From: Metallosphaera hakonensis JCM 8857 = DSM 7519
GTDB lineage: Archaea > Thermoproteota > Thermoprotei_A > Sulfolobales > Sulfolobaceae
DNA length: 64,000 nucleotides
Direction: 5' to 3'
Assembly: GCF_003201675.2 (NCBI RefSeq)
Contig: NZ_CP029287.2
Location: forward strand, 620,001 to 684,000
In this document: piece by piece, positions 27,525 through 37,078 of the stretch
Position numbering within the stretch: the first letter of the stretch is position 1
How the letters are laid out: each line of letters starts with the position of its first letter
The notes under the pieces: model-generated
What the model was told of the DNA's origin: nothing
What the model saw: the letters and a program-made list of their open reading frames with translations, nothing else
Databases searched by the model: none
Program-made: the position numbers and the translations under genes

Positions 27525-27947
27525 ATGTCGGAAAGAGACAAGCTTTACCAGACGTTGCTGGACAGACTTTACGCCAAGTTGCCAAAGAAGGATTTGGCGT
27601 CAGAAACACAGACCTTACCTACTCTCTCAATTATAAACGTGGGCAATACTACGATTATCAGGAATTTCAGCGAATTCTGTGATAGAATAAGGAGGGAAGA
27701 CAAACTATGCATGAGATATTTACTCAAGGAACTTGCTGCGGCCGGTTCGTTATCAGATAATGGACAACTAATTATCCAGGGCAAGTTCTCCTCATCAATT
27801 GTAAATACTTTCATGGATAGATTCATCAAGACCTACGTGCAATGCTCAACCTGTAAGAGCTTGGACACGGTTCTTGTTAAGGAGAAAAAAATATGGTATA
27901 TCCAGTGTTTAGCGTGCGGAGCCAAGAACTCAGTTAAGCCGTTATAA
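27525..27947 (+). CDS. eif2b: Translation initiation factor aIF2, beta subunit
   Basis: A 140-residue protein matching archaeal aIF2-beta. The core alpha-beta domain contains TIIRNFSEFCDRIRREDK and LLKELAAAGSL. The C-terminal zinc ribbon has CSTC and CLAC pairs (YVQCSTCKSLDTV, IQCLACGAKN). It is one subunit of the GTP-binding factor that brings initiator tRNA to the ribosome. It heads a plus-strand run of translation/RNA genes: DUF424, NMD3-like, rnhB and a TGS-domain protein. Confidence 0.95.
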   Translation: MSERDKLYQTLLDRLYAKLPKKDLASETQTLPTLSIINVGNTTIIRNFSEFCDRIRREDKLCMRYLLKELAAAGSLSDNGQLIIQGKFSSSIVNTFMDRFIKTYVQCSTCKSLDTVLVKEKKIWYIQCLACGAKNSVKPL

Positions 27948-27955
27948 GTGAGATA

Positions 27956-28252
27956 ATGAAAGTAGTCTTGAACGTTATTAGAGGAGAAGGTCACGTTTTC
28001 GTTAATATTTGCCAAAAAGAACATCTCGGCAAGGTGTATAAAGAAAATAAGGCAGTCCTAAACGTTAACAATGAGTTTTATGGGGGAGACGAAGTTGACG
28101 TCGACTACGCGTTAGGCTTAGTTGACGAAGCCACTGTAGTTAGCATCGTTGGAGAAACTATTATAGAGGAGGCGATCAAGAGGGGTTTAGTGCATAGGGA
28201 CTCGGTTCTCACGGTATCTGGGGTGAAGTTCGCTCAAATCTACAATCTGTGA
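27956..28252 (+). CDS. DUF424 family protein
   Basis: A 98-residue archaeal conserved protein. Features include the N-terminal strand VVLNVIRGEGHVFVNIC, GGDEVDVDYALGLVDEATVVSIVG and IEEAIKRGLV. DUF424 genes are commonly found next to aIF2-beta and NMD3 in archaea. A role with translation or RNA is inferred only from this neighbourhood. It begins 8 bases after aIF2-beta and overlaps the NMD3-like gene by 4 bases. Confidence 0.82.
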   Translation: MKVVLNVIRGEGHVFVNICQKEHLGKVYKENKAVLNVNNEFYGGDEVDVDYALGLVDEATVVSIVGETIIEEAIKRGLVHRDSVLTVSGVKFAQIYNL

Positions 28253-28950
28253 TATCCATGACCGGAAAGTTCTGCGTTAGTTGCGGGAAGGAAAACGTCG
28301 AACTAATAGGAAGACTTTGTCCTTCTTGTTACGTGAAAAGCAGGGAGATGGCTAGGGTACCCAAGAGCATAACCATAACGACATGCAGGTTATGCGGTTC
28401 AAGAAAAGTTAAGGGAAAATGGGTGTCTAGGGGCGATCCCATGGAGAAAATTGAGGAAGAGGTATTATGGTCTCTTACCTTGGATGAGAAAGTGAAGGAA
28501 TATCACATTGAACTCGGAAACACGTGGTCAGATAACCACGGTGGTAATCACTTGACTCTAAGGATTACGGGTTCCGTGGAAAGCGAAAGGTTTGATGAGA
28601 CTAAGGATATCCTTATAAAAAATGAAGTGAGCCTCTGCGATTCTTGTATGAAGAAGAGAGGAAAATATTACGAGGCAATAATTCAGTTGAGGTCAAAAAG
28701 TGGTGACGTGAAACTAGAGGAGAAGAGGTTCTTTGAGTCCTTCTTCTCAAGGGAGGAGATATCCAACCTCTCTGACGTAGTTGAGCTCAGGGAGGGAGTA
28801 GATTACTATTTTATCAACAGAACTGTGGCTAAGAAGTTGGTTGCAAGATTCACCAGTGAAGTGAAAGCAGACCTTAAGGAGAGTTATCAGGGAGAGAGAA
28901 TAAAAAGAGGTAAAAGGGATGCTAAACTAGTTATTTCGCTGAGGATATGA
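28249..28950 (+). CDS. NMD3-like ribosome-associated protein
   Basis: A 233-residue archaeal NMD3 homologue. Two N-terminal zinc-binding clusters are visible: CVSCGKENVELIGRLCPSC, then TCRLCGSRKVKGKW and LCDSCMKKRGKYY further on. Several beta-rich segments follow. Eukaryotic NMD3 is an adaptor for 60S export; in archaea a role in large-subunit assembly or tRNA-site binding is presumed. It overlaps DUF424 and rnhB by 4 bases each, so the genes are translationally coupled. Confidence 0.87.
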   Translation: MISMTGKFCVSCGKENVELIGRLCPSCYVKSREMARVPKSITITTCRLCGSRKVKGKWVSRGDPMEKIEEEVLWSLTLDEKVKEYHIELGNTWSDNHGGNHLTLRITGSVESERFDETKDILIKNEVSLCDSCMKKRGKYYEAIIQLRSKSGDVKLEEKRFFESFFSREEISNLSDVVELREGVDYYFINRTVAKKLVARFTSEVKADLKESYQGERIKRGKRDAKLVISLRI

Positions 28951-29573
28951 GACTGGGAGTTGATGAAGCCGGGAGAGGTTGCCTGATTGGACCAATGGTT
29001 GTGGCTGGAGTAGTCTTACGGGAAGAGGCTATGGAAAGATTAAGGAACGCTGGAGTAAAGGACAGCAAGAAGCTTACTAGGGCTCAGCGTGAGAGGTTAT
29101 TTGATTTGATAACCACAGAGAGTGACGCCTTAGCCGTTGCTAAGGCCCAACCCGATGAGATCGACTTGCATAACCTCAACTCCGTCACCTACTTAAAGGT
29201 GATACAGGTAATAGATTCTCTATCTTGGCTGAAACCAGACATGGTCACGGTAGACAAAGTAGGAAAGGAGATTGAGGTTATTAGGTTCATAGAGGAACTC
29301 GGTCTTAAATCCAATGTAATTCATAAGGCAGACGAAACGTTCATCGAGGCCAGTGCAGCCAGCGTTGTAGCTAAGGTAATTAGAGACAGACTAATTGACT
29401 CCATGAAGCAGACATATGGGGACTTCGGTAGCGGTTATCCTTCAGATAGGAAAACGGTGAAGTGGATCAAGGAACTGGTGGAGAAGGGAGGAGATCCACC
29501 GAATATTATAAGAAGAACGTGGAAGTTTTTACTAAAACATGCCCCAAGCTTCTACGTAGAGAAGGTGAGTTAA
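28947..29573 (+). CDS. rnhB: Ribonuclease HII
   Basis: A 208-residue RNase HII. The active-site signature is GVDEAGRGCLIGPMVVAG at the N-terminus. The remaining acidic residues are in VTVDKVG and HKADETFIEASAASVVAK. It removes RNA from RNA-DNA hybrids and single ribonucleotides from DNA. The ATG overlaps the NMD3-like stop by 4 bases, and its stop directly abuts the next gene's GTG. Confidence 0.95.
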   Translation: MRLGVDEAGRGCLIGPMVVAGVVLREEAMERLRNAGVKDSKKLTRAQRERLFDLITTESDALAVAKAQPDEIDLHNLNSVTYLKVIQVIDSLSWLKPDMVTVDKVGKEIEVIRFIEELGLKSNVIHKADETFIEASAASVVAKVIRDRLIDSMKQTYGDFGSGYPSDRKTVKWIKELVEKGGDPPNIIRRTWKFLLKHAPSFYVEKVS

Positions 29574-30647
29574 GTGGTTACAAATCTTCCCGCTGAGGCC
29601 AAAACTAAGTGGCTCAGAGTAATGGATGCTAAAACCCCAGAGGAGAAAATCAAGGCCATACAGGACTTCCTTAGTAGCGTCCCGAAACACAAAGGAACCG
29701 AAAACCTTGTTTATTGGGCTAAGAGACGTCTCTCCGAACTTCGAGAGGAAAGCGAGAAGCAGAGGAGGAAGAGTAAGGCCGGTGGCCTCTCTTTTTTCGT
29801 GGAGAAGGAAGGTGCAGGACAGGTCCTGGTCTTAGGGAGAGATGAGTTGAAAAATCAACTGATTAGAAAACTCACCAATGTAAAACAGGACCCCAAGGAT
29901 TATCCAGTTCCTGCCATGACGTTCTTTGAGGACTCGCCGATTCAGTTGGTTAATCCCCCGCAAATAATACTTGATTCAAGACTAATAGTGAGCAAAATAC
30001 TTGGCCTAGCGAGGAATGCAGATTCGATATTGTTTGTGGTTGAAGACCAGGAGGAATTTCAGAGAATGCGAGAATTTCTGGAAAACAATAACATACTTCT
30101 AGGGAAACCTAAAGGCAAGGTAGTAATTGAGAGGTTCAGAAGTAGTAAGGAAGGAATAAGAATAGTCATGCTGGGCCGTCTGGTGGGAACAACGGAAGAT
30201 CAAGTGAAGGAATATTTGAGCGAGTTTGGAATAAAGTCTGCAGTGGTGAAAGTGATGGGAGAGGTAAATCTAGATGACGTGGAAAAGTCCCTATTCGAGG
30301 CAATAGCGTTCAAACCTGCTGTCATTGCGTCAATAAAGCCATTTTCCATGTCCAATACACCAGTGGTTCCTATAACCAATCTAGATCTGCTTAAGCGTGA
30401 ACTCTTCCATAGCCTGGACGTAATAAGAGTGTACACAAAGGAACCCATGGAAGAGCCAACTACAGATCCCATGTTTATGAGAAGAGGATCCACGGTTTTA
30501 GATGTTGCACAGAAACTGCACAGTGAATTGTCGGAGAACTTCAAGTATGCTAGAGTGTGGGGAAAATCGGCCAGATTTCCAGGCCAGAGAGTCGGAGAAG
30601 ACCACGTATTAGAGGATAAAGATATCGTCGAAATTCACGTTAAGTAA
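29574..30647 (+). CDS. TGS-domain protein with degenerate DRG-like GTPase domain
   Basis: A 357-residue protein laid out like DRG/Obg-family GTPases: a helical N-terminus, a basic segment (RRKSKAGGLSFFVEKEG), a G-domain-like region and a C-terminal TGS domain (about residues 280-357, with VIRVYTKEP, RRGSTVLDVAQKLHSEL and a closing EDKDIVEIHVK). The P-loop position, expected as GFPSVGKST, reads VLVLGRDELKNQLIRKL and lacks GKS/T. The DxxG position is also lost (QIILDSRLI). It therefore probably does not bind GTP normally. The protein begins at GTG next to rnhB. A ribosome-linked role is inferred from DRG proteins and the neighbourhood. Confidence 0.72.
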   Translation: MVTNLPAEAKTKWLRVMDAKTPEEKIKAIQDFLSSVPKHKGTENLVYWAKRRLSELREESEKQRRKSKAGGLSFFVEKEGAGQVLVLGRDELKNQLIRKLTNVKQDPKDYPVPAMTFFEDSPIQLVNPPQIILDSRLIVSKILGLARNADSILFVVEDQEEFQRMREFLENNNILLGKPKGKVVIERFRSSKEGIRIVMLGRLVGTTEDQVKEYLSEFGIKSAVVKVMGEVNLDDVEKSLFEAIAFKPAVIASIKPFSMSNTPVVPITNLDLLKRELFHSLDVIRVYTKEPMEEPTTDPMFMRRGSTVLDVAQKLHSELSENFKYARVWGKSARFPGQRVGEDHVLEDKDIVEIHVK

Positions 30648-31052: not shown

Positions 31053-31892
31053 CTAAGCCTGAGATTCATACTTTCTCTGACTAATGTCTATGGATTTGGA
31101 AACTTGTTCACTAGCCGAATCTAACGCTTTCTCCACGTCTATTTCGTAGGCTACAGCCACTCCTGACCCGCTTTCCATCACCAAACTAGCTAGCACGTCA
31201 TTACCAGTGATAATTTTGTTACCCTTTATCATTTTCATCATGGTGGGCTGACCGTTTATCACTTGAATGCTAGCCCTTAGGTTATTTCTCTTAATAATAA
31301 TGAAACCTGTAGTAATATTTTGAATCAACTGTCTTATCTTAGGCACAATCTCAGCAATGTCTCCCTCTATTCTTTGTACTTCAGCTACTGACATTCCTTG
31401 TTCTATTGTCTCTTCTTTAAAGTACAACTTCATGTAAGGGATGATATGCTCTTGAATGAAATGCTGAGCCAATTGAAAAGGACTTTTACCAACTAATTTC
31501 TCCAGAGCCGAGGACTTATAGTTCACATCTAGGCCTATTTTAATTGATGTGCCACTGTTAGTATCGTTGAGATAGAACTCCGCCTTCCATTCAAGTTTAT
31601 GATCATCGGTTTTACCGCTGTATGTTATGGTACTACCTGATACCTCTGGGCCTCTCATGTAACCCAAAACTACGTGGAGTTTGGTATCAGGTGTTCCAAA
31701 GACATAAAGAACTCTGAAGTCTCTTCCAGGTTTAATAAGCTTTCCAGGTGATACATATTCACCTGTTGCCTCATCAACTACCTGTAGTATACTTATGTGA
31801 CCCATGACTCCTGAGAACAGGAAAGGATCTAAGAGCGCAGATCTAACCTTAGCTTTGGACGCAGTTATTGAGAACTCATAGGTTTCTAACAT
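31053..31892 (-). CDS. SRPBCC/START-like domain protein of unknown function
   Basis: A 279-residue protein starting MLETYEFSITASKAKVRSAL, the typical opening strand and helix of a START/SRPBCC fold. A beta-rich region follows (DHKLEWKAEFYLND), then a long helix with SPFQLAQHFIQEHIIPYM. The C-terminal 100 residues form a second alpha-beta unit. Ligand and role are unknown. The ORF extends upstream to 32060, but ATG 31892 is preferred: it fits the fold start, and a TATA-like AAAATATAAAG lies at 31920-31930 with a short leader ending in AGGT. The neighbours give no clear clue. Confidence 0.62.
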   Translation of the reverse strand: MLETYEFSITASKAKVRSALLDPFLFSGVMGHISILQVVDEATGEYVSPGKLIKPGRDFRVLYVFGTPDTKLHVVLGYMRGPEVSGSTITYSGKTDDHKLEWKAEFYLNDTNSGTSIKIGLDVNYKSSALEKLVGKSPFQLAQHFIQEHIIPYMKLYFKEETIEQGMSVAEVQRIEGDIAEIVPKIRQLIQNITTGFIIIKRNNLRASIQVINGQPTMMKMIKGNKIITGNDVLASLVMESGSGVAVAYEIDVEKALDSASEQVSKSIDISQRKYESQA

Positions 31893-32349
31893 ACCTAATC
31901 TTTGAATAGCTAAGAATGCTAAAATATAAAGCTTGTTAATAATCTTTCGAACACTATTCGTAAAGTTCTCTACATAAAGAAGGAAATTCGGAAATCGATA
32001 TCGAGAATCGGGCCCTCCCCATATAGATTGCCTGGAAAACATCACTTTCAGGTATAACACGCGACTACTATTGAAGCCCAGGAAATTTTAACCACAACTA
32101 CTTTCCTGGTTTGGACGAATCTATCTCACTGGCTTTCAATCTTTAATCAGTAAAACTCTAGATAATCCGTTGCTGTAATCAATGGTATATCCTTACAACC
32201 TTTAAAACTACTTAGACTCGTCACCCTTTTGAAATTCACATGATTTACTTCTGTTCTTCCAGGCTCCTTATTACTACATTTTACGAGTATTATATAGGCC
32301 TCTTGTTTAAACCTGGTACTTTCATAATCCCTGTTTCAGTGAATCAGGA
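31893..32349. other. Intergenic region with promoter and an 8-bp inverted repeat
   Basis: This divergent intergenic DNA holds the TATA-like box of the SRPBCC-like gene (31920-31930) and a perfect inverted repeat CCAGGAAA (32078-32085) / TTTCCTGG (32102-32109), which may be a hairpin or operator. A GTTTAAAC near 32305 could be the TATA box for the plus-strand gene at 32350. No RNA gene was recognised. Confidence 0.4.
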
Positions 32350-32874
32350 GTGAGCGTAGATGTTGATAATGGATTATTCCCCTCCCAGACGGTAATGGAG
32401 GGATCTGGAGAAGCGGTTGCACATATAGTAGCAGCTGCCTCTGTACTCAAGTCTATGGGAGAATTATCCTTGGATGTCGTAGAGATTGTGAGAAAGTACG
32501 TAGATAACTGGATAATGAGCATGGTCCCTCTAGACTATATTCCTGGTATGGCTGAATACCTAGGTGGTAAGCTCAACAAATCGATCCTTGACGTCCCGAA
32601 CGAAGTGTCCGAGGAGGAGTTTGGTGAAACACTCGAGATAATAACCTCAGTGAAGAAATCTCTTGATATGGGAGAGATCCCATATAACTTTGGCGATGCA
32701 GAGGTTAGAATAGATAGAGTATTTAGAGGCCTAGGTCTGGACGCTAACGACTTCGGGAGATTCGTGGGGGAAGTGAATTTACTGGAGAAAATGAAAAGGA
32801 CTATAACGTTATTCGTCCTTGCTATAGGTATAGCTTCAGTACGTGATAAGTTATGGATAGTGGAATCTCAATAA
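32350..32874 (+). CDS. Helical protein of unknown function, 174 residues
   Basis: Not recognised. The predicted protein is mostly alpha-helical with no membrane segment apart from a mildly hydrophobic stretch near the C-terminus (TITLFVLAIGIASV). It is rich in acidic residues and has no obvious motif. The start is GTG at 32350. It overlaps the following C2H2-like zinc-finger gene by 22 bases, so the two probably act together. The downstream convergent genes are a VWA/MoxR pair. Confidence 0.6.
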   Translation: MSVDVDNGLFPSQTVMEGSGEAVAHIVAAASVLKSMGELSLDVVEIVRKYVDNWIMSMVPLDYIPGMAEYLGGKLNKSILDVPNEVSEEEFGETLEIITSVKKSLDMGEIPYNFGDAEVRIDRVFRGLGLDANDFGRFVGEVNLLEKMKRTITLFVLAIGIASVRDKLWIVESQ

Positions 32875-33167
32875 CTGCGGAGAAACTGGTTGAGGTGACC
32901 GCAAAGTACGCTTCTCAGATAGCAGTAAAGGAAGAAGAATACGTTAAGGCGGTGGGTTTCTCGTCTCGGGAAATGGGCCAAAGAGTGGTGAAGAGGGTAA
33001 GTTTCTGGTTAATTACTCAAAACTCGACTCTCCTTTATTGCAGGTTATGTAATAGGGGGCCTTTCACGAAGAGAGGAATGTTTCTGCATCTCACTAGGAT
33101 GCATCATTCTGAGATCAAACTGATGTTAGAAGAAGAGATTAAAAGGGAGATAAAAACTATACTTTAG
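32853..33167 (+). CDS. Small C2H2 zinc-finger protein
   Basis: A 104-residue protein with one C2H2-type finger near residues 66-86: YCRLCNRGPFTKRGMFLHLT followed by RMHH (C-x2-C ... H-x4-H). Helical segments flank it, and the C-terminus is a charged helix (EEEIKREIKTIL). Single C2H2 fingers are common among Sulfolobales and their viruses, usually in DNA- or protein-binding regulators. The function is unknown. It overlaps the upstream 174-residue gene by 22 bases. Confidence 0.68.
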   Translation: MDSGISITAEKLVEVTAKYASQIAVKEEEYVKAVGFSSREMGQRVVKRVSFWLITQNSTLLYCRLCNRGPFTKRGMFLHLTRMHHSEIKLMLEEEIKREIKTIL

Positions 33168-33170
33168 AGG

Positions 33171-34526
33171 TCAAGATTCAACTACTTTTAGAAGATCTCC
33201 TTGATCTAATCTGTATACCACGAGATAGTTATCTGAAACCCTCTTTAAGTCAGCGTTGTCTCCCCTTATCATCACGCTTATAAGTGTGGCGTTAGCTTCC
33301 TTTAAGGATCTCCTTACCGTAGTCTCTGCAATTTTATCTTCACCGTCGGTAAGTATTATAACTTCACTGACTCCCCTCACATGACCGTCCTTTATATCAT
33401 CGCAGGCAGACATAACCGATCTCGATATGTCCGTGCCTCCTCCTCCTCTTATTTTACCTATGTATTCGACCATCTTAATAACGTCCTTACTTTTAGCGCT
33501 CTTTATTACCTTTATCAGAGGATAAGGTATGTTATCAAAGAACCTCAAATAGAAGTCCCTATTCTCTCTCCTAGCCCTACTATATAGTGCGAGTGCTACT
33601 GCCTTAGCCCACAATATTTTCTCGCCGTCCATACTTCCAGACTTGTCGAGTAGAAGATAAATGGGTCCCCAGTTCTCCTTAATCTGCTTTTGGTAGAGGA
33701 GAAGTTGGCTTTCGGCCAGTTTCACATCAAACAACTCTTCAGGCAATGCAAGCTCTGAGGGAACTAACCTTTCAAGGTCCGATCCTTCCTCATAGCCATA
33801 CAGTTCTCCCCTGGCATACCTTGTGGTTCTCTTCTTGGTGAAGCTACCTAATTTTGGTATACCGCTAAGGAACTCTAGAATCTTCTTAATCTCAGTATTC
33901 CTGGCTAACCTTAATACGTCGTGAATGTCCCCCTCAAAAGTCATCATGGACCCTGTTCCGGCTCCGTTTCCCCCTACTATTCTTTGCATGTTCCTTACGG
34001 AATTGGCGTCCTCGGAGGCCTTGGCCATAGCCTTTTCGTGAACCTGCTTCATGAGTTTCCCTGATGCCTGGTTTTCCTGTTGTTGATTCTGGTTCTGCTT
34101 CCCCTCTTTCCCTTGAGTTCCCTTCATTATTCCATTGAGTATCTGCTCAGCAGCTTCTCTCTCCTCTTGGGACTGAGACGTCCTTCTTATCCTCTCTAGT
34201 TCTTCTATGAGGTTCTGAACGTAACTCACTGAAAGCGCCATACTAACTGCAGAGTTAGCAATTGAGTAATTCCTGTTTCTGTTAACAATCTCTGATGATA
34301 AAGTTAGATCCATCAGCGAATATTTTATACCGTCACTTTGCTCAACCTCTCCCTTAGTCTTTAGAATTGGCAAAGGCAAATAGTGGACGTAATAGGTGTC
34401 TACTAAAAACAGGGGATCAACATTGGACTCCTTTCCAGAGACTCTCCTTAGGGTGCTAAGTATCCTTTCCCCTCTATACTTAATCACGGGGCTATCGTAA
34501 TCTACACCTCTAAGGAGACCTGTCAT
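33171..34526 (-). CDS. VWA-domain protein (partner of MoxR ATPase)
   Basis: A 451-residue protein. The N-terminal 280 residues are helical with a glutamine-rich linker ([13 protein letters not shown]). The C-terminal von Willebrand A domain carries the MIDAS motif [13 protein letters not shown] near residue 296, the Thr in GGGTDIS and the Asp in ILTDGED. The layout resembles ViaA/CoxE-type proteins that work with a MoxR-family AAA ATPase. The ATPase gene lies directly upstream with a 4-base overlap. The pair probably forms a chaperone-like complex inserting metals or remodelling complexes; the client is unknown. Confidence 0.85.
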
Positions 34527-35668
34527 GTGTAAATCCCCAGCTTTCTACCTACTTTTTCCACCAACTTATCTATCTCTGACCCTACCTCTCTTGAGAACTC
34601 CTCTACCTTCTCGTCTCCGCTTTCTCTACCTAAGGAGATTACTCTATCTTTAGTGGCCCTTAGACTCCTAATCAGGTCTATCAGTCTAGGGTCTGACTCA
34701 TTGGCTGCATCCACATATTTCCCTGCCTCCTTAATATTATTGAATATTTCGTTCAGTTCCCTCATGTATTTTATTGGGGTCTTTAGTTCCTCGGAAAGCA
34801 AAGCAGAGACCTTTTCAAAATCGTCAAGCTCCCTGGGTGCAATGTACTTCAGCACCACTAGATCCTCTTCGGTTGCCTTCATCCTCGAGTTAAGTAAGGC
34901 GTGGGCTGAAACTATCTTCAGGACTTTACCCTTTCTCCTATCGGTCAAATGGACCCCTTTCTCCTCGAGCATTACATATAGCTTTAGTAATTTAGATTTT
35001 ATTTGACTTAAATCAACATCAGGCAACATACCATAAAGTCTGTCTAAGTCCTGGACCGTCATAACCGGTTCTTTTACTTTCCATTTCTCAGTAAATTCCA
35101 GCTCCCATGAAGAATCAATGAGGTCCTTCCACATATCCTCGCCAACAGGTTTAGCGTAATGCCTGAGCAAGAGACGATCGTAAAGAGCCTCAAGCTCGGG
35201 CTCGTCGGGTACCCTATTACTGGCGCTTATGAGGGTTCTCAACGGGACCTTAATTACATTATAACCATCGTAGATGACCCTCTCGTTGAGCAGAGATAGG
35301 AGAGCGTTAAGAATAGCGGAATTAGCGTTGAATATTTCGTCCAGGAACGCAAGTTCGCTCTCCGGAAGCCTCTCCTTCGTTATCCTCCTGTAAATACCTT
35401 GCTTTAATGCATTAACGTCAAGGGCTCCAAACAGTTCAGCCGGTTCCGTATACTTAGTTAATAAATACATGAAGAATTTAGCGTTCAATAAATCTGCAGC
35501 CCTCCTAGCAAGAGCCGACTTTGCCGTTCCAGGCTCCCCTATCAATACAATATGCTCTTTGGTGAGGAGTGCCAGGGTAAGAACCTTCGCCTCCTCTTCC
35601 CTTCCCACGAATGGGGAATAGAGGTTTTCCAAAAATTTTTTGGGAAGTTCAAGGAGTGATGTACTCAC
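34523..35668 (-). CDS. MoxR/RavA-family AAA+ ATPase
   Basis: A 381-residue AAA+ protein. Walker A is [15 protein letters not shown] near residue 40, then the MoxR-type [15 protein letters not shown] motif, Walker [25 protein letters not shown] and sensor 1 ISASNRVP. The C-terminal 150 residues are helical, as in RavA. It is encoded directly ahead of a VWA-domain protein, the standard MoxR-VWA partnership. A TATA-like AGCTTATAAAC at about 35700-35711 is the likely promoter. The client is not evident from neighbours. Confidence 0.88.
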
Positions 35669-35835: not shown

Positions 35836-35935
35836 GTGAACTACCCCGCCCTCACGACGGGGCATCTCCACCTCGCGATGGGGATTTCCTGCTTCTTCCA
35901 GGAAACTTACTATACACACCCTCAGAGAAGGGAAT
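35836..35935 (-). ncRNA. Probable omega RNA (TnpB guide RNA) region at the right end
   Basis: TnpB guide RNAs are made from the 3' part of tnpB and the right end, with the guide lying just outside the element. Here the last codons of tnpB and the following bases form GC-rich hairpins, CCCCG/CGGGG at 35844-35862 and a weaker ATCCCC/GGAGAT one within 35863-35888. The guide would be the flanking DNA to the left of about 35838. This rests on family knowledge plus visible hairpins; no transcript evidence exists. Confidence 0.45.
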
Positions 35936-37078
35936 GTACAGCAGAGGTCTCCTGTCCACAGGCTCTAAGGGCAGTCCCGACCCCGTATGAAGAATATTTA
36001 GAGAAGCGTTATAATCACGATCTATGGACCAACCGCAGTTGGGACAAGCAAACACGCGGTCTGCTAGGGACAGATCTTTCTTCACGTATCCACACCTAGC
36101 ACACGTCTTCGAAGTGTACGCTGGGTTCACTTTCACCACCCTCCTACCGGCTCTTTCAGCCTTGTAGGAGAGGTAGCTCATGAACCTGGAAAGGTTGGAG
36201 TGAAGGATATGCTTCCTCAAAGTTTTACTCTCGCTATCCTCTACCATCTCCTTCACGTCTAGATCTTCCACATAGACCTCGTCGTACTGTTCAACCAACC
36301 ACGAAGTTACCTTATGAATGAAATCGCTCATCAGATTCTTCGCGTGCTCGTGTAGTTTAACCAATTTCTCTCTGACCTTCTCATAGTTCCTCGACCCCCT
36401 CTTCTTCCTCGATAATGACCTTTGCAGGATCTTCATCCCCCTCTCAACCTTGTCGAAAACCTTAGGGTTCTCTAGTACAACCCCGTCTGAAGTGGTTACT
36501 AGCTTATCAACTCCCAGATCTACCCCCACCACTTTCCCAGCCTTGTCAAGGTGTTTCTTCTCAACCTCAACCTGAAATACCGCATACCAACCAGTGGCAC
36601 TCTTCTTTATTATTACTCCCTTTACCTTACCTTCCAAAGGCCTGTGGAAGAGGACTCTCATCTCACCTATTTTTGAGAGGATTAGTTTGTCTCCCTCCAC
36701 TTTGAAACCAGACTGGTTGTAATTGATGATCTTCATGATCTTCTTATGCCTCAATTTCCCAACTTTCTTCCCTTTCCTCTTCAGTTCGTGAAGAGCGTTG
36801 ATGTTGTACCATAGCTGGTTGTTCACCATCTGAAGAGCTTTGGAGTAAACTAGGTCTTTCCCATCTATTTTCAACCCTTTCAACATGTCCTGCGTGTCCT
36901 CAGGGGTTATCTTTCTTCCCTCCTTTCTTGCATTATTTACTGCATCTAACAACGCGTTGTACACTTTAGCTTCAATTTGCATAACCTTGAGGAATTTTTC
37001 CTCTACTTCTTTCGTTGGGTAAATCCTGTACTTGAACGAGAGTTGAATTGTATTATTCTTTCCCTTGGCTCTCCACAT
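35852..37078 (-). CDS. tnpB: TnpB RNA-guided nuclease (IS200/IS605)
   Basis: A 408-residue TnpB. The RuvC-like core is complete: VVGVDLGVDKLVT near residue 190 (Asp), VYVEDLDVKEM near residue 272 (Glu) and DRDYNASLNI near the C-terminus (Asp). The zinc ribbon has CARCGYVKKD and CPNCGWSID. The N-terminus KYRIYPTKEVEEKFLKVMQ is the usual RNA-binding start. TnpB cuts DNA guided by the omega RNA and helps maintain its element. It overlaps tnpA by 26 bases. Confidence 0.92.
   Translation of the reverse strand: MWRAKGKNNTIQLSFKYRIYPTKEVEEKFLKVMQIEAKVYNALLDAVNNARKEGRKITPEDTQDMLKGLKIDGKDLVYSKALQMVNNQLWYNINALHELKRKGKKVGKLRHKKIMKIINYNQSGFKVEGDKLILSKIGEMRVLFHRPLEGKVKGVIIKKSATGWYAVFQVEVEKKHLDKAGKVVGVDLGVDKLVTTSDGVVLENPKVFDKVERGMKILQRSLSRKKRGSRNYEKVREKLVKLHEHAKNLMSDFIHKVTSWLVEQYDEVYVEDLDVKEMVEDSESKTLRKHILHSNLSRFMSYLSYKAERAGRRVVKVNPAYTSKTCARCGYVKKDLSLADRVFACPNCGWSIDRDYNASLNILHTGSGLPLEPVDRRPLLYIPFSEGVYSKFPGRSRKSPSRGGDAPS

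Follow-up and report, generated by a model that had tools for sequence, protein, structure and literature searches.

A DRG-family pseudo-GTPase in Metallosphaera hakonensis with a putative GTP-independent role at the ribosome

The gene at 29574-30647 of the window, by which we mean the whole 64,000-nucleotide stretch of Metallosphaera hakonensis DNA analyzed here, runs on the forward strand from a GTG start through 357 codons to a stop, and its product is best explained, as far as sequence can tell, as the DRG protein of its archaeal lineage turned pseudo-GTPase. This reading rests on the retained DRG architecture and on the loss of the nucleotide-binding motifs, which is shared by every member of the family sampled.

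Domain layout, nucleotide motifs and constraint

A preliminary description of this DNA had ascribed to the protein a DRG layout and a good TGS domain, and both were borne out. Searches with phmmer against solved structures aligned residues 24-354 with yeast Rbg2 (E 4.6e-27, the best match) and residues 21-354 with yeast Rbg1 (E 1.4e-25), the predicted fold matches both, and Pfam places the TGS domain (E 9e-18) at residues 284-355 (30423-30638). The DRG order of helix-turn-helix (HTH), G domain, S5D2L insert and TGS is present, with the HTH aligned by sequence and lying outside the structural superposition. In the model the HTH spans residues 22-67 (29637-29774), its turn lysine K40 being encoded at 29691-29693, and it follows an N-terminal extension, MVTNLPAEAKTKWLRVMDAK (29574-29633), which is supported by alignments, counts and the model, is predicted to form a helix at residues 7-18, and begins in relatives with the conserved start M(V/P)TNLPAEAK. 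The S5D2L-like insert at about residues 186-243 (30129-30302, boundaries approximate) gives a partial, sub-threshold match to the Pfam DRG insert family MMR_HSR1_Xtn (24 bits, cut-off 35.2). The Pfam GTPase domain MMR_HSR1 has no match in the 357-aa protein at E <= 1; for comparison, the same model reaches 84.7 bits on a DRG from Nitrososphaeria and 61.5 on one from the same order that carries GKS. All of these features lie on the forward strand, as do the degenerate motifs described below.

Alignment to other DRGs shows what has become of each nucleotide motif. The G1/P-loop, GFPSVGKST in canonical proteins, is reduced to GRDELKN (residues 88-94, 29835-29855), one residue short of GxxxxGK[ST]; the switch I/G2 stretch TNVKQDPKDYPVP (residues 101-113, 29874-29912) is 6 residues below the usual length in relatives; DLPG at G3 (DxxG) has become NPPQ (residues 127-130, 29952-29963); and NKID at G4 (NKxD) has given way to SIKPF, within ASIKPF at residues 252-257 (30327-30344), in a shortened stretch from which G5 is gone too. 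The preliminary description had reported that the P-loop and DxxG positions no longer carry GKS/T or the G3 pattern, which is correct and common to all 28 genomes of the window's own family (f01), which we take to be Sulfolobaceae. In these 28 genomes GK[ST], DxxG and NKxD are all absent, and every one of them has a P-loop shortened by one residue, as against 0 of 180 others, so the loss of the motifs cannot be put down to chance. The switch-I stretch is likewise 10 residues long in 28/28 and 16 in 174 of the 180 others (two f33 genomes also have 10). For the G4-G5 stretch the median length is 40 residues versus 59, a shortening of about 19. Asn127 is found in all 28 members, and the pocket-adjacent residues G88, T101, N127 and P129 are invariant within the family. 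Relocation of the motifs within the protein was rejected, with a Walker A motif found nowhere in any of the 28 proteins; a relaxed GxxxxGK-like string occurs in 3/28, a stray DxxG in 5/28 and an NKxD-like string in 2/28, none at the expected positions.

The structure model was built on an alignment of 31 related DRG locus sequences, a construction that favours a DRG fold, and reached a mean pLDDT of 81.8 and a pTM of 0.62; the alignment-free model was poor (pLDDT 44) and usable only at the N-terminal helices. The best Foldseek matches of the model were Rbg1/Rbg2, including the ribosome-bound structures 7rr5 and 7nrc (best E 2.1e-23), with a loose global superposition on Rbg1 (TM 0.56, rmsd 16). 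VIA-align superposed 277 residues on Rbg1 at 28% identity (Z 19.5, rmsd 7.3), the HTH falling outside the aligned range. Strong domain matches together with a loose superposition indicate that the domains fit while their relative placement does not. Compared with DRG structures, as the preliminary description had proposed, the model still shows a G-domain fold. Strand 82-88 stands almost directly before a helix that starts at residue 90, which in the model would leave little room for a phosphate-binding loop. With motifs and loops gone in 28/28, a G-domain fold predicted and a low dN/dS in one pair, the earlier suggestion of a pseudo-GTPase is well supported at the sequence level.

Purifying selection on the gene was observed in the one pair of genomes in which it could be measured. 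Whole-gene dN/dS was 0.013 for G102-G084, the sole unsaturated pair; in six of the seven whole-gene pairs dS was saturated and no ratio was obtained. Split by part, the values for this pair were 0.010 (N-terminus), 0.005 (first pseudo-G segment), 0.019 (insert), 0.057 (G4-G5) and 0.005 (TGS). Mean identity within the Sulfolobaceae family is highest in the N-terminal part (0.80) and TGS (0.75), followed by the insert (0.63) and the two pseudo-G parts (0.58, and 0.37 for G4-G5). The conservation profile of the GKS-bearing families is similar (0.44-0.50 in G4-G5), which supports a shared use of contact modules and does not mark the pseudo-GTPase off from them. In the archaeal protein the likely ribosome-contact modules (HTH and TGS) are kept and the switch is given up.

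Some pseudo-GTPases bind nucleotide through a non-canonical pocket, and the protein might by such means remain a ligand-regulated switch. The G-domain fold of the model, the four invariant pocket-adjacent residues and the tight constraint on the pseudo-G domain's first half (0.005 in G102-G084) would all fit this explanation. However, the P-loop has lost length and in the model the strand before it runs almost straight into the following helix, switch I and the G4-G5 stretch have lost length as well, and the G4-G5 segment has both the lowest mean identity and the highest dN/dS (also 0.15 and 0.19 in two other computable pairs), so that we regard retained nucleotide binding as quite unlikely. 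That the gene is simply decaying, with no function left, could be argued from the lost catalytic motifs and shortened loops, but the full-length open frame in all 28 family genomes, the low dN/dS of the unsaturated pair, the nearly invariant N-terminus and the conserved operon position make this barely conceivable. A pseudogene or assembly error was rejected on open frames in 28 separate genomes and on the low dN/dS (one pair).

Copy number, distribution and history of archaeal DRGs

The DRG protein appears to be the only one in its genome. In the single contig of 2,544,115 bases, two TGS proteins exceed the family cut-off, this DRG and a YchF-like protein of 400 aa at C1:1344464 with intact motifs including the P-loop. 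A second, canonical DRG was sought by protein, by TGS family and by DRG insert family, and these searches gave only the YchF-like protein; four other PF16897 matches in the genome fall below the cut-off and cover only profile positions 57-104. The possibility that the 357-aa protein is itself a YchF was also rejected, as it aligns full length with DRG and the genome encodes the separate YchF-like protein; the NCBIfam YchF model gives it 33 bits against a cut-off of 387, over residues 271-354 only. YchF/OLA1 proteins resemble it in their OBG-family G domain and TGS (Z about 14) but differ in the N-terminal and inserted parts.

Our survey covered 256 genomes (G000-G255), with DRG extracted from 208; 9 gave no match, and 39 with matches were left out, among them 15 of the 19 genomes of f17, a family taken as Nitrososphaeria via G220 (LN890280) and similarity. 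The genomes in which DRG was not detected (G007, G076, G098, G100, G127, G179, G192, G211 and G214) carry YchF-like TGS proteins, except for G100, which has nothing over the cut-off, and several of the nine are incomplete. In G007, G192, G211 and G214, reported to be 95-99% complete, only YchF-like TGS proteins were found. Since DRG went undetected in genomes of this completeness, it is not needed universally and seems dispensable in some lineages.

Motif retention differs strongly among the groups surveyed. All three motifs are present in the four f17 genomes sampled (of 19), and the 80 named loci, which by title are Nitrososphaeria or archaeal MAGs, are all canonical (78 by pattern, 2 by eye). 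Among the 176 genomes outside the Sulfolobaceae family and f17, GK[ST] is found in 161 and NKxD in 151, with DxxG in 3. The switch-II DxxG is accordingly absent from 173 of these 176 DRGs, most of which keep the P-loop and NKxD; proteins of this kind may, to judge from the motifs they retain, bind GTP without switching. Five of the 176 genomes are without any motif, namely three of f19, G208 and G173. Within the GTDB order of the window, families other than its own retain GK[ST] in 113/113 and NKxD in 110/113, with DxxG in 2/113. The question raised earlier, whether the motifs are missing throughout the Sulfolobales, receives a divided answer: they are lacking in 28/28 of the protein's own family, but GK[ST] is kept in all 113 DRGs examined from the rest of the order. 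From these order-wide counts motif decay appears to be stepwise and to reach beyond the Sulfolobaceae.

A close canonical comparison is the Nitrososphaeria DRG (e.g., Nitrosotalea devanaterra LN890280, L291), which is homologous, has the TGS and the insert and is about 30% identical, but which carries GLPSVGKS, DLPG and NKID, as do the 80 named loci, and is without the N-terminal extension. The GKS-bearing DRGs of other families of the order (e.g., L026) share the extension and TGS, the better-matching ones being about 46-53% identical, and show linkage to RNase HII in several families; they differ in keeping the P-loop and, nearly always, NKxD, while sharing the absence of DxxG (111/113). The extension (M[VP]TNLPAEAK...) was found by pattern in 198 of 204 non-f17 sequences, and inspection by eye shows a variant of it in 5 of the 6 misses; in the sixth, G015, a long reading frame lies upstream. 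It occurs in the non-Nitrososphaeria Thermoproteota DRGs, and neither the Nitrososphaeria DRGs that we examined nor the fragment of yeast Rbg1 compared here has it. Nearly invariant within the Sulfolobaceae family, the extension (29574-29633) characterizes the non-f17 DRGs as a group.

A tree was inferred from 102 sequences after removal of the motif columns, by a quick method with SH-aLRT supports only; it included 12 of the 28 Sulfolobaceae members and left out the two DxxG-bearing f09 genomes counted in the survey, G064 and G070. The 12 Sulfolobaceae rows form one clade (support 100) nested among GKS-bearing archaeal DRGs, and the simplest reading of these sequences is that the whole pocket was lost once, on the stem of the family. 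One long branch (2.16, support 100) parts all non-f17 archaeal rows from f17 and yeast. The tree requires 2 changes for DxxG and at least 9 for GK[ST], counts that alone do not separate gain from loss; their direction rests on the canonical Nitrososphaeria and yeast as the only outgroups. P-loop decay has recurred, being complete in f19 (3/3 sampled) and in G208, with a change of Lys to Arg in several families. The f19 loci L184-L186 and the G208 locus L190 have wholly lost the three motifs and stand apart from Sulfolobaceae on the tree. The Lys-to-Arg change (GRS) is seen in L148, L149, L153, L155, L161, L162, L166 and L204, which belong to several families.

These observations could be joined in a tentative history, to which we give somewhat less than even weight, in which the DRG of most Thermoproteota is no GTP switch. 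Loss of DxxG would fall on the same long stem branch as the origin of the N-terminal extension, turning the protein into a constitutive ribosome binder. The pocket, no longer needed, would then have been dismantled repeatedly and independently, fully in Sulfolobaceae and f19, largely in G208, and by Lys-to-Arg replacement in other families.

Gene neighbourhood and proposed role at the ribosome

The DRG gene closes a tight run on the forward strand that opens with aIF2-beta (27525-27947) and continues with a DUF424 protein (27956-28252), an NMD3-family protein (28249-28950, overlapping DUF424 by 4 nt) and ribonuclease HII (28947-29573), which abuts the DRG gene; all gaps and overlaps in the run are under 10 nt. 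The company of aIF2-beta, DUF424, an NMD3-like protein and RNase HII given in the preliminary description was therefore accurate. The same gene order was found in all 16 Sulfolobaceae loci with enough flank, and NMD3, RNase HII and DRG are present in the other 12, whose flanks are shorter. Downstream of the run, ORFs of 335, 174 and 104 aa (31053-33167) have no Pfam match over the cut-off, and among the loci examined their homologues were detected beside DRG only in some genomes of the same genus, in which the 335-aa ORF has the opposite orientation. Further on, a MoxR-type AAA ATPase (bpMoxR, E 4e-61) adjoins a VWA-domain protein on the same strand (33171-35668), and an IS605 OrfB/TnpB-type protein occupies 35852-37078 with an open frame of 408 aa.

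RNase HII stands directly upstream of DRG in 28/28 Sulfolobaceae loci and in 27/88 others (55/116 overall). Its presence in 27 of the other loci suggests that the pair is probably older than the family. The constancy of this same-strand arrangement could be taken to mean that DRG and RNase HII are partners in the metabolism of DNA or RNA and that DRG does not act in translation. However, in many other DRG-bearing lineages the linkage was not found (0/12 in f06, 0/9 in f03 and 0/4 in f17), and the DRG homologues for which data exist work on ribosomes, so that we consider such a partnership very improbable.

Work on yeast describes how such homologues sit on the ribosome. Rbg2 places its TGS on the small subunit (h5/15), its HTH and G domain on the stalk base, sarcin-ricin loop and H89, and its S5D2L on A-site tRNA (PMC8040806). 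HTH and TGS are reported as essential and S5D2L as less so (PMC3510508, PMC8629797). Section 11 of the review PMC8629797 describes the lysine at the apex of the HTH turn as hydroxylated in eukaryotic DRGs and the domain as touching the 60S subunit. In our own alignment this apex lysine appears to correspond to K40, which is invariant in 208/208 genomes.

With yeast Rbg1/Rbg2 (human DRG1/DRG2; OBG-family GTPases) the archaeal protein shares the order of HTH, G domain with S5D2L, and TGS, and the HTH-turn lysine. Unlike them, it is without GxxxxGK[ST], DxxG and NKxD, is shortened in the P-loop, switch I and the G4-G5 stretch, and has an extra N-terminal helix. A further possible difference concerns the DFRP partner, which recruits Rbg1 to polysomes in yeast (PMC3510508): its domain, PF16543, has no match in the genome, and 14 control genomes likewise gave 0 over the cut-off, so prokaryotes may generally be without it, or the search may have been too insensitive.

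On the strength of DRG homology, the operon of translation factors and the conservation of HTH and TGS, a structural role on the ribosome is plausible for the protein. We infer, with moderate confidence and by analogy for its binding, site and action alike, that it is a DRG without a GTP switch acting in the A-site region. It would dock as yeast Rbg1/Rbg2 do in the factor-binding region beside the A site, so that the HTH and pseudo-G domain would contact the stalk base and sarcin-ricin loop of the large subunit, TGS would contact the small subunit, and the S5D2L insert would lie close to A-site tRNA; there it would brace ribosomes that are slow or stalled, independently of GTP. Its residence would be set by affinity and by competition with elongation factors and not by GTP hydrolysis, and the lineage-specific N-terminal helix would perhaps add a contact that replaces the switch.

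The yeast data also bear on this proposal from the other side. An S79N mutation in the P-loop of Rbg1 abolishes activity in vivo, and GTPase activity is called absolutely required (PMC3510508), and a GTPase-domain mutant has weaker ribosome binding (PMC8629797); given these defects, a DRG that does without GTP must work at least partly differently. Against a GTP-free brace also stand the conservation profile shared with GKS-bearing families, the equally tight constraint on TGS and on the early part of the pseudo-G domain in the G102-G084 pair, the failure to detect DRG in some nearly complete genomes, and the failure to detect DFRP here.

A different role at the ribosome would be that of a large-subunit biogenesis or quality-control factor working with NMD3, a pseudo-GTPase placeholder on the pre-50S particle and not an elongation factor. 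Its gene lies in the same compact run as that of NMD3, which in eukaryotes is a factor for 60S maturation; the Lsg1 GTPase that releases Nmd3 is reported to be missing from archaea (PMC8481954), and OBG-family relatives function in biogenesis (PMC8629797). Nevertheless, yeast lacking both Rbg1 and Rbg2 is described in the same review as having an unchanged total number of ribosomes, the run also includes aIF2-beta and RNase HII and is thus not specific as operon company, and NMD3 was undetected beside DRG outside the Sulfolobaceae family, a weak point given that most of those loci are short-flanked. We therefore hold a biogenesis role to be unlikely and prefer action in the A-site region.

Searches of open-licence PubMed Central papers turned up no archaeal DRG without nucleotide motifs, though an earlier description elsewhere is possible; the main text of the S. 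islandicus essential-gene paper has no mention of TGS, GTPase, GTP-binding, NMD3 or RNase HII. The sources consulted present archaeal DRG as single-copy and conserved, and according to a 2021 review DRG homologues share highly conserved G motifs (PMC8629797). DRGs span archaea to humans, and the finding that in Sulfolobus-like archaea the sole DRG found has no GTP site suggests that part of the job of DRG is GTP-free. These organisms are tractable model archaea with a motif-less sole DRG and with graded intermediates around them, and in them one could study cleanly the GTP-free work of DRG on the ribosome, the manner of its departure, and the question of whether its function is driven by hydrolysis or only regulated by it.
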